A stretch of DNA of 64,000 nt from Candidatus Woesearchaeota archaeon. Its GTDB lineage: Archaea > Nanobdellota > Nanobdellia > Woesearchaeales > DSVV01. The notes beneath the pieces are model-generated. The model saw only the letters and a list, made by a program, of their open reading frames with translations. It did not search any database and had not been told where the DNA came from. The translations under genes and the position numbers were made by a program. Each line of letters opens with the position of its first letter. Position 1 is the first letter of the stretch. The DNA is taken from NCBI GenBank assembly GCA_018661705.1, contig JABJHR010000014.1, positions 62,001 through 126,000 of the forward strand, read 5' to 3'. This document shows, piece after piece, positions 2,522 to 48,562 of this stretch.

Positions 2522-2612
2522 CAAAAAACAACAACCCTGGCACAGACGGACATTTTACTTTGTAAAATATCCTACTCGGTTTCACCTCGCCTGGCCAATG
2601 TTGTTTTTTGTA
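2522..2612 (+). repeat. Family A structured repeat, copy A1
   Basis: AAAAAACAACAAC..TGGCACAGACGGAC[hairpin]ATCCTACTC-GGT-TTC-ACC-TCGCCTGGCC..TTGTTTTTTGTAT. Confidence 0.85.
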
Positions 2613-2628
2613 TAAGATAAATAAATTG

Positions 2629-2672
2629 AAAAACTCTACAACATTAGGGCGAAGCCAATGTCGCTCACGAAA
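2629..2672 (+). repeat. Half-unit H (right half of family B) following A1
   Basis: ACTCTACAACATTAGGGCGAAGCCAATGTCGCTCACGAAA matches the right half of B1/B2. Confidence 0.7.
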
Positions 2673-2726
2673 GATTTTAAAAAACAATAATTCTTTAATT
2701 CTCAAAAAATTAAGAAAAAATAAAAA

Positions 2727-4627: not shown

Positions 4628-4710
4628 CAAAAAACAACAACATAGGCACAGACGGACTTTTTCCAAAAGTCCTACTCGTCTTCGACTCGCCTGGCCTTAT
4701 TGTTTTTTGT
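4628..4710 (+). repeat. Family A structured repeat, copy A2
   Basis: AAAAAACAACAACATAGGCACAGAC-GGACTTTTtccAAAAGTCC-TACTC-GTC-TTC-GAC-TCGCCTGGCCTTATTGTTTTTTGTAT. Confidence 0.85.
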
Positions 4711-4727: not shown

Positions 4728-4770
4728 AACGCTCTTAAACAATTGCGAATGCTATTTTCTCACTAAGAAT
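4728..4770 (-). repeat. Half-unit H (left half of family B) abutting A2
   Basis: Reverse complement reads TTAGTGAGAAAATAGCATTCGCAATTGTTTAAGAG. Confidence 0.7.
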
Positions 4771-4796
4771 TTCTCTTTTTTACAGACTTAAAGAAA

Positions 4797-11023: not shown

Positions 11024-11144
11024 TTACAATTCACCCCTTTAGTTTACTAATTTATTATTAATTTATACACTCAAGACATTTATCCTTTATATATTTTATT
11101 GAATAACTTATAGGGGCTTTTGTTATTAAAAGTAAGAAAAACCC

Positions 11145-11232
11145 TCGTGAAAAAAAAGCATCCGCAATTGTTGAAGAGTATTTCTCTGCAAATAACTCTA
11201 GAACACTAGGGCGAAGCCAATATAGCTCACTA
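11145..11232 (+). repeat. Family B palindromic repeat, copy B1
   Basis: CTCGTGAAAAAAAAGCATCCGCAATTGTTGAAGAGT...ACTCTAGAACACTAGGGCGAAGCCAATATAGCTCACTAA. Confidence 0.8.
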
Positions 11233-11299
11233 ATTTTTTAAATTATTTAGAAATAAGTAGTATCAAAAAAATAAGAAAAAAAAGAAAAAAGCTAAAAGC

Positions 11300-15054: not shown

Positions 15055-16008
15055 TCATTTCAACGTTGTAATTGGTCTGCTTTGAAGCACATACAATTTA
15101 CCTTTCTCAATACTCCATTCAATATCAACAGGGAATTTGTAATGTTTTTCCAGCTTAATTATAATATTGGCAACTTCTTTTATTTGTTTCTCTGTTAATT
15201 TCTGAGTTTTGCCCGTTTCCTCAGGTATATTTTGCCATTTGTTTTCAACACCTGCAACTGTATCAACCTTAACAAGCATTTTTTGTTGCGTGTTAACAGA
15301 AATATCTTCAATCACACCCTCTTTTTTCTTAACAACATAACTATCAGGTGTAATTTGTCCAGAAACAATTGCCTCTCCTAATCCAAAACCAGCTTCTATT
15401 ATTAATTGATTTCTATCTTCTGTTACAGGATGCACTGAAAAACCAATTCCTGAAACTTCAGGTTCAATCATTTTCTGAACAACAACTGCTACTGAAATCT
15501 TTTCACCATGCAATCCTTTTTCAAATCTATAAAAAATAGCTCTTGGAGTAAATAATGATGCCCAACATTTTCTAACATTTTCTAATAAATCTTTTTTTGT
15601 TGTATTTAGAAAAGTATCTAATTGACCAGCCCAAGCAGCTCTTGCACTATCTTCAGCTGTTGCAGAACTTCGAACAGCAACAAACTTTGTACCTAAACTA
15701 TTAAACTCTTCAACAATTTCATCTGCAATATCTTTTGGAATCTCAGTATTATTAATCAGGGCTTGTATTTTTTCAGAAGCATTTTCAATTGTATGCATTA
15801 CTTCTTTATCAACTTCATCTAACGCCGCACCTACTTCAACAATTAAATCAGTTTCATCTAAGAATCTATCAAAAGCATCTGCTATTACAACAAAACCAGG
15901 TGGCACATTAAATCCTGCTTTAGTCATTTCCCCTAAAGAAGCTCCTTTACCACCAGCAAGATTAACATCTTTTTTAGTAATATCTGAAAAATCCTTAATA
16001 TGTTTCAT
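15055..16008 (-). CDS. Stand-alone PEP synthase / PPDK N-terminal (PEP/pyruvate-binding, ATP-grasp-like) domain protein
   Basis: NLAGGKGASLGEMTKAGFNVPPGFVV...VRSSATAEDSARAAWAGQLDTFLN...DIEWSIEKGKLYVLQSRPITTLK; ends at 317 aa with no swivelling His or PEP-utilizer barrel domain. Confidence 0.88.
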   Translation of the reverse strand: MKHIKDFSDITKKDVNLAGGKGASLGEMTKAGFNVPPGFVVIADAFDRFLDETDLIVEVGAALDEVDKEVMHTIENASEKIQALINNTEIPKDIADEIVEEFNSLGTKFVAVRSSATAEDSARAAWAGQLDTFLNTTKKDLLENVRKCWASLFTPRAIFYRFEKGLHGEKISVAVVVQKMIEPEVSGIGFSVHPVTEDRNQLIIEAGFGLGEAIVSGQITPDSYVVKKKEGVIEDISVNTQQKMLVKVDTVAGVENKWQNIPEETGKTQKLTEKQIKEVANIIIKLEKHYKFPVDIEWSIEKGKLYVLQSRPITTLK

Positions 16009-16236
16009 GTTTACTCATTTGAATATTTTGATTTATTTAAATTTTATGGGTAATGAGTATTGAGTTGTGGGTAATAAGTTGGTAATGGGCAGGTAATGAA
16101 TATTGGGGTTTTGAGCATTGCTTCTTTTTCTCAGAACTAATTAACTCAGAACCAACCCATAACTCACCACCCACAACTACTTACATCTATAATTTCATAT
16201 AAAACTTTATATACATCCCAACATATATGCATAATT

Positions 16237-18183: not shown

Positions 18184-18270
18184 AGTTAGTTTAAAATATT
18201 ATTAAAAAATAAAATTCTAATGAAAAATAGATAATAGTAAAAACAAAATTCTAAAAAAATAAAGAAAAAA

Positions 18271-18365
18271 CTTAGTGAAAAAAGTAGCATCCGCAATTGT
18301 TGAAGAGTATTACACTGCATGTCACTCTTCAACACTGGGTCCGAAGGACATGTCACTCACGAGTT
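18271..18365 (+). repeat. Family B palindromic repeat, copy B2
   Basis: TTAGTGAAAAAAGTAGCATCCGCAA-TTGAAGAGT...ACTCTTCAA-CACTGG-GTCC-GAA-GGAC-ATGTCACTCACGAG. Confidence 0.85.
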
Positions 18366-26847: not shown

Positions 26848-26952
26848 GAAAATAACAACAAGGCCAGGCGAGTTGAAAGCTTGCTTGAAACGAGTAGGAT
26901 TTTTTGAACAGAGTGAAAAAAGTCCGTCTGTGCCATTATTGTTGTTGTTTTC
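26848..26952 (-). repeat. Family A structured repeat, copy A3
   Basis: Reverse complement reads ATGGCACAGACGGACTTTTTTCACTCTGTTCAAAAAATCCTACTC-GTT-TCAAGCAAGCTTTC-AAC-TCGCCTGGCCTTGTTGTTATTTT. Confidence 0.85.
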
Positions 26953-40768: not shown

Positions 40769-40908
40769 CAAAAAACAACAACAATGGCACAGACGGACTT
40801 CCTGAAAATATGAAATTTTCAGGCCTTCAAATTAAAATTTGAAGTTATCCAAAAGTCCTATTCGCCTCAAGCAAGCTTTCGGCTCATCTGGCCTTGTTGT
40901 TTTTTGTA
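40769..40908 (+). repeat. Family A structured repeat, copy A4 (expanded)
   Basis: ATGGCACAGAC-GGACTT[CCTGAAAAT..ATTTTCAGG][CTTCAAAT..ATTTGAAG]..AAGTCC-TATTC-GCC-TCAAGCAAGCTTTC-GGC-TCATCTGGCCTTGTTGTTTTTTGTAT. Confidence 0.85.
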
Positions 40909-40927: not shown

Positions 40928-40966
40928 CACTTTTCAACACTGGCGGATGCTTCTTTTTTTCACTTA
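40928..40966 (-). repeat. Half-unit H abutting A4
   Basis: Reverse complement CTAAGTGAAAAAAAGAAGCATCCGCCAGTGTTGAAAAGT. Confidence 0.7.
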
Positions 40967-41011
40967 GATTTGACCTATAAAACTAAAGATTAACACATAA
41001 GAAAAAACAAT

Positions 41012-43744: not shown

Positions 43745-45411
<1,667 letters not shown>

Positions 45412-45422
45412 ATTTTTTATTC

Positions 45423-45529
45423 GGGCTTGTAGCTCAGTCTGGTAGAGCACCGCCCTTGCAAGTTTAAGTAAGTGCAATTGCTTTACCAAAGACAGGCGGG
45501 GGCCTCGGGTTCGAATCCCGACGAGTCCA
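45423..45529 (+). tRNA. tRNA-Ala(UGC) with anticodon-loop intron (about 45461-45493)
   Basis: GGGCTTG/CGAGTCC acceptor, D-stem GCTC/GAGC, anticodon stem CCGCC/GGCGG, T-arm TCGGG-TTCGAAT-CCCGA. Confidence 0.93.
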
Positions 45530-45596: not shown

Positions 45597-48562
45597 GATA
45601 ATGAGACCATGCATAGGGGATACATACTTCACGTTATTAGGTGGATAGTTTGGCTCAGTAAGATGAAGAAGGACGTGACAAGCTACGAAATGTCTCGGCG
45701 AGGTGCAGGTAACCGTTGAACCGAGAATCTCCGAATGTGACTTCACTTTGAATCTGTAAAGATGAGTAACGCAGGGAATTGAAACATCTTAGTACCTGCA
45801 GGAAAAGAAATCAAAAGAGATGCTGTTATTAAGGGCGACTGAAAGCAGCACAAGGCAAACTGAATCCTTTGCAGTAATGTAAAGGAGATGTGGTGTGGCC
45901 ATCGTTATAAACCATTTTTGTGAATTGAAGTTTTCTGGAAAGTCATACCATAGAGGGTGAAAGTCCCGTAAGTAAAACAAAGATGGTTTTAGGTGGTACC
46001 TCGAGTAGTATTCATCGGATATTGAATATGAATGTGGGAGTATCAACTTCCAACCTTAAATACTCACTGAGTCCGATAGCAAAGGAGTACCGTGAGGGAA
46101 AACTGAAAAGAACCCTTAACAGGGAGTTAAAAGAACTTGAAACCTAATAACTATAGCAAGGTAGGGCTCTACGGAGTTCTGCCGTGCGTTTAGAATAACG
46201 TACCAGGGAGTAAATCTATGTGGCGAAGATAATCTTATACAAGAGTATCTATAGCGAAAGCAAAACCTTGCAGATTCGAGAAGGGGGGTACTAACCTGCC
46301 TTAAGTCACATGGATCTGACCCGAAGCGGGACGATCTATCCTTGAATAAGATGAAATGTAGGTCAAACTGCATGGAGGTCTGAAGGAGTGCTACGTGCAA
46401 GTGCTTCTCTAATTTGAGGTTAGGGGTGAAAAGCCAATCGAGTTCCGTGATAGCTGGTTCCTACCAAAGTTGGCCAAAGTCAAGCCTTGAGTCAGATAGC
46501 ATAGACGGTAGAGCTACGGATTGGGGGCTCAGGGGAAGAAATTCCTCGGTTCCTTGTCCAACTCCGAATGTTTATGCATCGTAGCTCAGGAGACGCGTAT
46601 ACGGGGTAAGCTTGTATACGGAGAGGGGAACAACCCAGACTATAGTTAAGGCCCCTAAACGCTAACTAAGTGTTAACGGGTGAAGAGTGTTCATTCACAC
46701 AGACAGCAAGGAGGTTGGCTTAGAAGCAGCCACCCTATAATAAGTGCGTAACAGCTTACTTGTCAAGTGGATGAGCCTCGAAAATGGACGGGGCTAAGTT
46801 AGCTGCCGATACTATAGACCATCTAAAAGATGAGTGGTAGGTAGGCGTTCTGGTTGGGCAGAAGGTTTTACAAGAGTAAGACTGGACCGATTAGAAATGA
46901 AAATCCTGGTGGTAGTAGGATCTTAGCAGAGTGAGAATCTCTGTCACCGAAAGGGCAAGGGTTCCTTGACAATGTCGATCAATCAAGGGTTAGTTAATCC
47001 TAACTGTTCTCATAACTTGAGAAACGGGAAAGGGAAACAGGTTAATATTCCTGTACTATTAAAGTAAACGTGGTAACACAAGTTTAATTCCTGACGCTTT
47101 TGGTTAGGCTAACACAAATTATCTTTTGTGCTAATTAGAATAAATTAATGGAGTATCATAACGATGAGAAATTAATTAAGTCTAAGAATGGTGCTCTTTG
47201 AGCATTTAGCTGATACCATGAGCCCATGAAAAGGGAATTGAAAATGATCTTTAATATTTATACCCAGAACCAGCACTGGTGCCCCTAGGTGAGAAGCCTA
47301 AGGTGTGAAGGTTTAATCTGACTAAGGGAATTCGGCAAATTAGCCCCGTGCCTTTGGTATAAGGGGTTCCTGTAATTGTTTCTGTATAGAGGCGATTGTA
47401 GGATGCAAATATTAGGGTGGTCCGACTGTTTAACAAAAACATAGCTTTCTGCTAGCCTGTAAAGGTGTGTACAGAAGGTGAAGTCTGCCCAGTGCCCGTA
47501 CTTTAAACTCCTTTTCAAGGGAGCTAAGAGCGGGTAAACGGCGGGAGTAACTATAACTCTCTTAAGGTAGCGAAATGCCTTGCCGTTTGAATGACGGCTT
47601 GCATGAATGGCTTAACGAGATCACCGCTGTCCCTAGTCAGAATCCTCCGAACACCCTTTTCTGGTGCAAAGGCCAGAGATTTCCAGTGGGAAGTGAAGAC
47701 CCCGTGAAACTTTACTGTAGCCTGTAATTGTGATGTGAGTTTTGTTGTATAGCGTAGATGGGAGTTGTTATGTTCTGGTCGCCAGATCAGGAATAGACGT
47801 CAGTGAAACACCATCCATCAAAACTTATGTTGCTAACTAGCTCAAAGCTAGGACAGTTATAGGTGGACAGTTTGGCTGGGGTGGCACCCTGCTGAAATTG
47901 TATCAGTAGGGCCCAATGGTTAGCTCAAGTCGGTCAGAAATCGACTGGAGAGTGCAAGGGCAAAAGCTAGCCTGATTGGATCTTCACTAATTCAAGATCT
48001 AAAAACGAAAGTTTGGCCTAGCGAACTCCTATACCTCATTGATGGAGGTTAGGAATGACAAAAAAGTTACTCCGGGGATAACAGAGTTGTCGCGCCCGAG
48101 AGCTCATATTCATGTTTGCACTTGCAAATATGATAGAGTAAATCGACGGCGCGGTTTGCTACATCGATGTCGGCTCTTCCTATCCTGGTCGTGCAGAAGC
48201 GACCAAGGGTGCGGGTGTTCACCGATTAAAAGGGATCGTGAGCTGGGTTCAGAACGCTGTGAGGCAGTTTGTTTAATATCTACTGGAAATGTTGGAAATT
48301 TGAAAGGAAGAATCTTCTAGTACGAGAGGAACGAAGGTTCGGAGCCACTGGTCCACCGGTTATCTGATAAGGTAAGCCGGGCAGCTACGCTCTAGAGGAT
48401 AAGTACTGAAAGCATCTAAGTACGAAACCTTCCTTGAAAAGAAATTTCTTGAACTCTCATAAAAGATGAGGTTAATGGATACGGTGTGTAAGTACCAAGG
48501 TAACGAGGTATTTAGCATGCGTACCCCAATCGTTCATACTTGTATCCCCTATTATGGTTATC
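45597..48562 (+). other. 23S rRNA precursor processing stem
   Basis: GATAATGAGACCATGCATAGGGGATAC (45597-45623) pairs with GTATCCCCTATTATGGTTATC (48542-48562). Confidence 0.8.
45624..48541 (+). rRNA. 23S ribosomal RNA (ends approximate)
   Basis: GGTGGATAGTTTGGCTCAG near 5' end, TAACTATAACTCTCTTAAGGTAGCGAAATGCCTTGCC, CGGCTCTTCCTATCCTGG, AGTACGAGAGGAAC. Confidence 0.96.

Follow-up and report, generated by a model that had tools for sequence, protein, structure and literature searches.

What kind of element occupies positions 40,769 to 40,908 of the window (the whole 64-kb stretch of Woesearchaeota DNA analyzed here), and does its fold matter as RNA or as DNA? The preliminary description had assigned this segment, copy A4, to a four-copy intergenic family with covarying stems, and had proposed either a novel structured RNA or a hairpin substrate of a mobile element. 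All four copies (A1 to A4) were recovered where it had placed them, and inspection of the sequence and a covariance-model search agreed (Table 1). The model was derived from 52 aligned copies of the window's genome (G000), among 61 full copies parsed there. It matched the window exactly four times (2524-2611 +, 4630-4710 +, 26848-26949 - and 40771-40907 +), with E values from 2e-21 to 6e-16; the next-best match had an E value of 0.09, and this search found no fifth family A copy in the window. The parts described earlier were likewise present: the four P3 stems (GGT/ACC, GTC/GAC, GTT/AAC, and GCC/GGC), loops of either TTC or TCAAGCAAGCTTTC, the additional nested hairpins in A4, and the pairing of GGC(A)CAG with CTGGCC together with the AAC/GTT arms. 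The count of four copies held for the window and had to be abandoned for the genome, which carries at least 76.

Table 1. Positions of family A copies, the parts of copy A4, and adjoining family B halves in the window
Feature	Position	Strand	Details and basis
Copy A1	2522..2612	+	P2 CATTTTACTTTGTAAAATA, P3 GGT/ACC; sequence and covariance model, E 2e-21
Copy A2	4628..4710	+	P2 CTTTTTCCAAAAG, P3 GTC/GAC; sequence and covariance model, E 1.2e-20
Copy A3	26848..26952	-	P3 GTT/AAC, TC-AAGC..GCTT-TC extension; covariance model, E 3e-19
Copy A4	40769..40908	+	Two nested extra hairpins in P2; covariance model, E 5.8e-16
A4 left outer arm, CAAAAAACAAC	40769..40779	+	Pairs with 40896-40906; sequence, arm covariation
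A4 P1, 5' side, GGC(A)CAG, bulged A at 40789	40786..40792	+	Partners CTG 40888-40890 and GCC 40891-40893
A4 unpaired joint AC, P1 to P2 (minus strand GT)	40793..40794	+	Sequence; conserved across alignments
A4 hairpin P2 (GGACTT...AAAGTCC), variable arm	40795..40858	+	Sequence
A4 unpaired joint TA, P2 to P3	40859..40860	+	Sequence; conserved across alignments
A4 hairpin P3, Y-TC-GCC-(TCAAGCAAGCTTTC)-GGC-TC-R	40861..40886	+	Sequence; Y-R covaries
A4 right outer arm, GTTGTTTTTTG	40896..40906	+	Sequence
Family B half right of A4, ACTTTTCAACACTGGCGGATGCTTCTTTTTTTCACTTAGAT	40929..40969	+	Sequence
Family B half right of A1, CTCTACAACATTAGGGCGAAGCCAATGTCGCTCACG	2633..2676	+	Sequence
Family B half right of A2, CTCTTAAACAATTGCGAATGCTATTTTCTCACTAAG	4731..4771	+	Sequence

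A three-way junction under selection

The common fold, a three-way junction, combines A/T-rich arms with the hairpins P2 and P3, a bulged purine, and joints (AC, TA, and Y) that are conserved and unpaired. Along the plus strand, the order is A-rich arm, GGC-(A)-CAG, AC, GGA...TCC (P2), TA, Y-TC-NNN...NNN-TC-R (P3), Y, CTG-GCC, and T-rich arm. The minus strand gives an A/T-rich outer stem, a GGC stem with a bulged T, P2 and P3 as minihairpins, and the joints R, TA, and GT. There, the TC/TC mismatches of P3 become tandem G-A and A-G in a Py-GA-Pu context, and distant families have ordinary pairs at these places. The first base of P3 is a purine in every well-parsed copy when a less constrained listing is used; the corresponding count of 94/94 was partly forced by the search pattern. 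As a side observation, some A copies (at L024, L029, and L053) carry an extra hairpin block, AATTACGACTAAAGTCGAAATTATTAAGCTTGATTAACATCAAG, in the left outer arm, and at L009:4784 the reverse complement of this block lies in the right arm, as would result from a flip of the core.

Is the fold maintained by selection? In the G000 alignment, double-sided changes occurred in 84 cells (counted as cells, which are non-independent events), compared with 23.5 ± 3.6 after shuffling and 0 to 7 when the partner was slid, and 93.3% of cells were paired, versus 86% shuffled and 30 to 53% slid. P1 was paired in 99.4% of cells, compensatory changes included, through variants such as GGCACAG/CTGGCC, GGCACGG/CCGGCC, GGCATGG/CCCAGCC, and GGTACAG/CTGACC, and the Y-R pair closing P3 was C-G in 68 copies, T-A in 22, and another combination in 4. 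Distant homologues (36 matches in other genomes) behaved alike, with 151 double-changed cells versus 34.5 shuffled and with 95.9% of cells paired, a value that leans in favor of the structure because the alignment was fitted to it. Despite this fitting, sequence changes in the arms and P1 were plainly visible, as in the arms AATCCAGCCA...TGGCTGGATT. Compensatory changes thus lay far above both kinds of control (shuffled and slid) in G000 and far above the shuffled control in distant homologues, and they strongly support both the earlier proposal of selection on structure and the three-way-junction-like fold.

Copy number, placement, and turnover of sites

The family extends well beyond the window. 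Covariance-model matches numbered at least 76 in G000 (1.65 Mb, 92.8% complete) and at least 116 in the congeneric sister species, the metagenome-assembled genome (MAG) Woesearchaeota SI047_bin3 (G001), from 150 scored candidates in each genome. A 13-base core allowed up to two mismatches was found at 71 places in G000, compared with 3 for the reversed control pattern. Across the order Woesearchaeales, 21 of 147 genomes had matches, and a phylum-wide draw gave 18 positives among 284 genomes, all 18 within the same order; the genomes are MAGs or of unstated origin, and the number of candidates scored per genome was limited. Relatives of family A occur in many families of the order in a patchy but multicopy distribution, with some genomes of the same family lacking the element, and adjacent inverted pairs of copies were seen in several genomes. 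No family A match was found in the collections of viral contigs (searched with two patterns), plasmids, and phages. Separately, we noted divergent relatives with a very different P1, two of which form an adjacent inverted pair (L193:15854-15954 + and 15959-16064 -), with another in the right flank of L093.

In G000 and G001, the copies are intergenic, and none lies inside a long reading frame. Ninety-seven copies from both genomes fell between tandem genes (26 ++ and 30 --), divergent genes (21), and convergent genes (20); because gene calling relied on a simple reading-frame script, individual placements may be wrong. Orientation relative to tandem genes was balanced (p = 0.69), and convergent gaps were mildly favored over divergent ones (p between 0.01 and 0.05; 20 convergent versus 12 to 13 expected). 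This slight excess, together with A6..T6 arms around GC-rich hairpins, is what bidirectional terminators or insulators (GC hairpins flanked by an A-tract and a T-tract) would look like. We consider that explanation very unlikely, given that 21/97 copies occupy gaps between divergent genes, which call for no terminator, that one relative sits inside an apparent operon, and that a three-way junction with fixed joints is superfluous for termination.

Are the sites themselves stable? Where the genes flanking G001 copies were found together in G000, some sites were shared and others were empty. On large G000 pieces chosen without regard to the repeat, about 8 G001 copies were absent versus 3 shared, the clearest empty site being L108:3760-3980 compared with L062:3720-3860. 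The flanks of empty sites were too diverged for reading an insertion boundary, an exact excision or insertion point as expected of an IS200/IS605-derived MITE, or a target duplication. With regard to a DDE-type MITE, for which terminal inverted repeats and a target duplication of constant length would be expected, inverted arms were present and no duplication could be seen in their A/T-rich flanks. Elsewhere, P2 had been replaced in place while the arms and P3 were kept (L028:10188 compared with L084:8908), or differed in length, 6 versus 43 bases, by the same kind of replacement (L036 compared with L097). The swapped-in P2 types are also found elsewhere in the same genome, in other copies. 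At L028:9583 and L084:8325, the two species carry the element in opposite orientations, with the direction of the flanking genes kept; independent insertion is an alternative reading of this site. Sites are gained or lost between the species, and P2 tips are exchanged in place. Between the two closely spaced, inverted, identical copies on G001 contig C14, no transposase was found among the reading frames.

P2 and P3 assort freely: 54 copies carried 52 combinations, compared with a permuted mean of 53.3, and 40 copies carried 38, compared with 37.7 when permuted. Selection for unique combinations serving as barcodes was considered and rejected, as the observed numbers equaled the permuted ones. 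We tentatively entertain, at a low level of confidence, that the repeats could be substrates of an undescribed archaeal recombination system acting on folded single-stranded DNA, which would exchange or flip hairpin modules between dispersed sites; such exchange and flipping would give each copy its own P2/P3 combination.

Some sites persist between species at about 70 to 90% protein identity, which counts against a mobile element in that a host function would predict it too. The family could be a static site in the DNA that the host retains for chromosome organization, fork restart, or recombination/insulation, its cruciform or single-strand fold being bound by a host protein and its spread resulting from occasional duplication or recombination. 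Several congener-shared sites with their arms kept, orientation-blind placement, and near-perfect pairing in a genome where no candidate Y1 gene was found all suit this explanation. We nonetheless judge it unlikely in view of the excess of empty over shared sites in the less biased comparison, the patchy distribution within families, and the numerous adjacent inverted pairs, which mobile REP-type repeats also show. Selection in single-stranded form has been proposed for REPINs (PMC3116915), and the copy-number, placement, and turnover data fit a nonautonomous mobile repeat selected in that way. Our preferred reading, which we hold to be moderately probable, is that family A is a dispersed, nonautonomous REPIN/MITE-like DNA repeat of Woesearchaeales, spread via recognition of a folded single strand.

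A second dispersed repeat, family B, accompanies many of these copies. Its two hairpin ends are inverted (TTAGTGAAAAAAGTAGCATCCGCAATTGTTGAAGAGT ... ACTCTTCAACACTGGGTCCGAAGGACATGTCACTCACGA) and carry loops of the DNA type, GNA/GNAB; the repeat reads ACTCTTCAACACTAGGGC-GGA-GCCAATGTCACTCAC, with variants. About half of the G000 family A copies have a B half on the right and some lie between two B ends, so A can sit within or beside another hairpin repeat. Family B also occurs alone, and the A-B arrangement was seen at one copy in G001; A and B may form a composite unit of this lineage. Family B is also present at about 11128-11240 and 18255-18365 of the window. The module CAC(C/T)CCG-NN-GG(G/A)G(C)CAACCC(T/C)C, which forms the P3 tip in distant relatives, recurs in separate elements of G000 and G001, partly in inverse orientation (L034:3001 -, L035:3001 +, L097 right of 3043, and L139-L155). 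A 107-base tRNA (Rfam tRNA) at 45423-45529 of the window, probably with an intron and missed by ARAGORN at default settings, lies between archaeal 16S (43808-45277) and 23S (45616-48549) rRNA genes.

The folded strand and the search for an enzyme

Which strand folds? The minus strand was predicted to be the stabler one in 102/103 copies with DNA parameters and in 101/103 with RNA parameters; that RNA parameters, too, place it above the plus strand counts against our preferred reading. Loops of the type d(GNNA) and tandem G-A pairs in a Py-GA-Pu context are stable in DNA. On the minus strand, 62 of 70 countable P3 loops were of the GNA (45) or GNNA (17) type, and the loop-closing pair was C-G in 57 and T-A in 13, never reversed. 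The tetraloops were GTTA, GATA, and GACA, and 0/17 were GNRA. The minihairpin d(GCGAAGC) is described as extraordinarily stable (Yoshizawa et al. 1994, as cited in PMC10527192).

The evidence favors a DNA element over an RNA. A structured RNA, whether it regulates from the leaders or tails of mRNAs or represents a family of small RNA genes, would account for the very strong covariation; the minus-strand tandem G-A pairs by the three-way junction are stable in RNA too, and one relative's copy (L121) lies inside a ribosomal-protein/NusA gene cluster. It is rather improbable, however, since the copies have no preferred orientation to neighboring genes, no conserved promoter-like block was found outside the arms, the P3 tetraloops are never GNRA, and comparison with Rfam gave no relevant family at gathering or relaxed thresholds. 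Of the two readings originally offered, a mobile element's hairpin substrate is the better fit, and the structured RNA fares worse on account of the balanced orientation, the DNA-type loops, and the empty, swapped, and inverted sites.

How might such a repeat spread? According to the preferred reading of a mobile DNA repeat, the minus strand, once single-stranded, would fold into the three-way junction, and an enzyme recognizing the folded strand would spread the element, a Y1/HUH transposase working in trans being the likeliest candidate. Recognition by that enzyme, and not an RNA product, would keep every copy paired, and gene conversion or template switching between copies would shuffle the hairpin tips.

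Y1_Tnp genes (PF01797) were present in 14/21 element-bearing genomes versus 39/126 others (Fisher p = 0.003, unadjusted for genome size), a weak association across the order. No Y1_Tnp gene was found in G000, 92.8% complete, despite its at least 76 copies, and family members lacking the element (G002, G003, and G004) also have Y1 genes; these two points weigh against the preferred reading, as does the fact that no clean boundary or target duplication could be read at empty sites. A Y1_Tnp gene as obligate partner was rejected on the G000 result, and tyrosine recombinases, in 122/147 genomes, are too nearly ubiquitous to be informative. The only Y1 gene found in G001 belongs to an IS200-like unit with other hairpins, one end of which directly adjoins an A copy at its left arm. 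No family A model match lay beside the Y1 genes of G003 to G006 and G008, the loci covered, and no full insertion sequence (IS) with family A ends was found. The IS200/IS605 TnpA connection raised at the outset receives only indirect support, as no Y1 gene was found in the window's genome; Y1 in trans is kept as the most likely, though unproven, enzyme. We also observed the IS200-like Y1 unit at the ends of G001 contigs C3 and C50 (L114 and L105), where it possibly uses an A arm as its target.

Covariation is usually taken as proof of RNA and here points to single-stranded DNA. The hundreds of covarying copies in two congeners amount to a natural mutagenesis experiment on a DNA fold, and the covariance model can annotate a repeat otherwise mistakable for an RNA family. 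In-place tip exchange and the flipped copy prompt a testable question, namely, what enzyme of these minimal archaea works on folded DNA.

Comparison with known systems

To our knowledge, few REP-like systems have been described in archaea, and the literature searched contained none from Woesearchaeales. How does family A compare with described elements? Archaeal integron attC sites are recombined as a folded bottom strand (PMC9668308), as the minus strand of family A is predicted to fold, and GAA triloops and orthologous sites with changed inner parts extend the likeness. Assignment to integron-type attC sites is the one we credit least, as an R-box pair (GTTRRRY/RYYYAAC) was present in only 2/61 and 4/43 copies, and the copies stand roughly 20 kb apart in both orientations with no cassette arrays.

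AAV-type terminal hairpins form a T-shaped three-way junction with two small arms. Family A shares the T shape, but it does not lie at genome ends, and no link to a virus was found in the viral and phage collections searched. The hammerhead core places NGA-stem II-GAA beside a three-way junction, and the minus strand of family A has YGA-stem-GAR in the same setting; a hammerhead-like core was rejected, as there is no CUGA segment, the Y-R pair covaries, and no Rfam family matched. Among MITE-type modular repeats, ERIC, BOX, NEMIS, and Correia resemble family A as intergenic, orientation-blind units of 80 to 140 bp with palindromic arms and a modular middle, and family A differs in its three-way junction, DNA minihairpins, free module assortment, and in-place tip exchange. 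The ends of IS200/IS605 and PATE-type MITEs likewise have subterminal single-strand hairpins and do not need perfect terminal repeats; the hairpins of the one IS200-like copy in G001 are different, however, and no autonomous IS sharing both ends with family A, as expected of a derived MITE, was seen at the inspected Y1 loci.

REP/REPIN elements are intergenic, many-copy single-strand hairpins that show compensatory changes and inverted pairs and keep conserved bases unpaired at their foot (PMC3116915, PMC3733652, PMC6006769). Family A differs in being one obligate three-way junction with A/T-rich arms in an archaeal host; its constant unpaired bases are limited to TA and GT, and the outer "tag" letters covary with the stems. 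Neither an unpaired GT[AG]G/CGTC tag nor a repeat-flanked RAYT/Y1 gene was found, the latter in G000, so family A falls short of what defines REP/REPIN. On the minus strand, (G/A)TAG and CGT(C) stand on either side of P2 and are reminiscent of the GTAG/CGTC tags; plus-strand CTAC (minus-strand GTAG) was present in 40/61 and 37/43 copies and CTAT in 18 and 5. In its behavior, family A matches REP/REPIN elements: it is extragenic and palindromic, reaches high copy number, changes by compensation, and occurs in inverted pairs.
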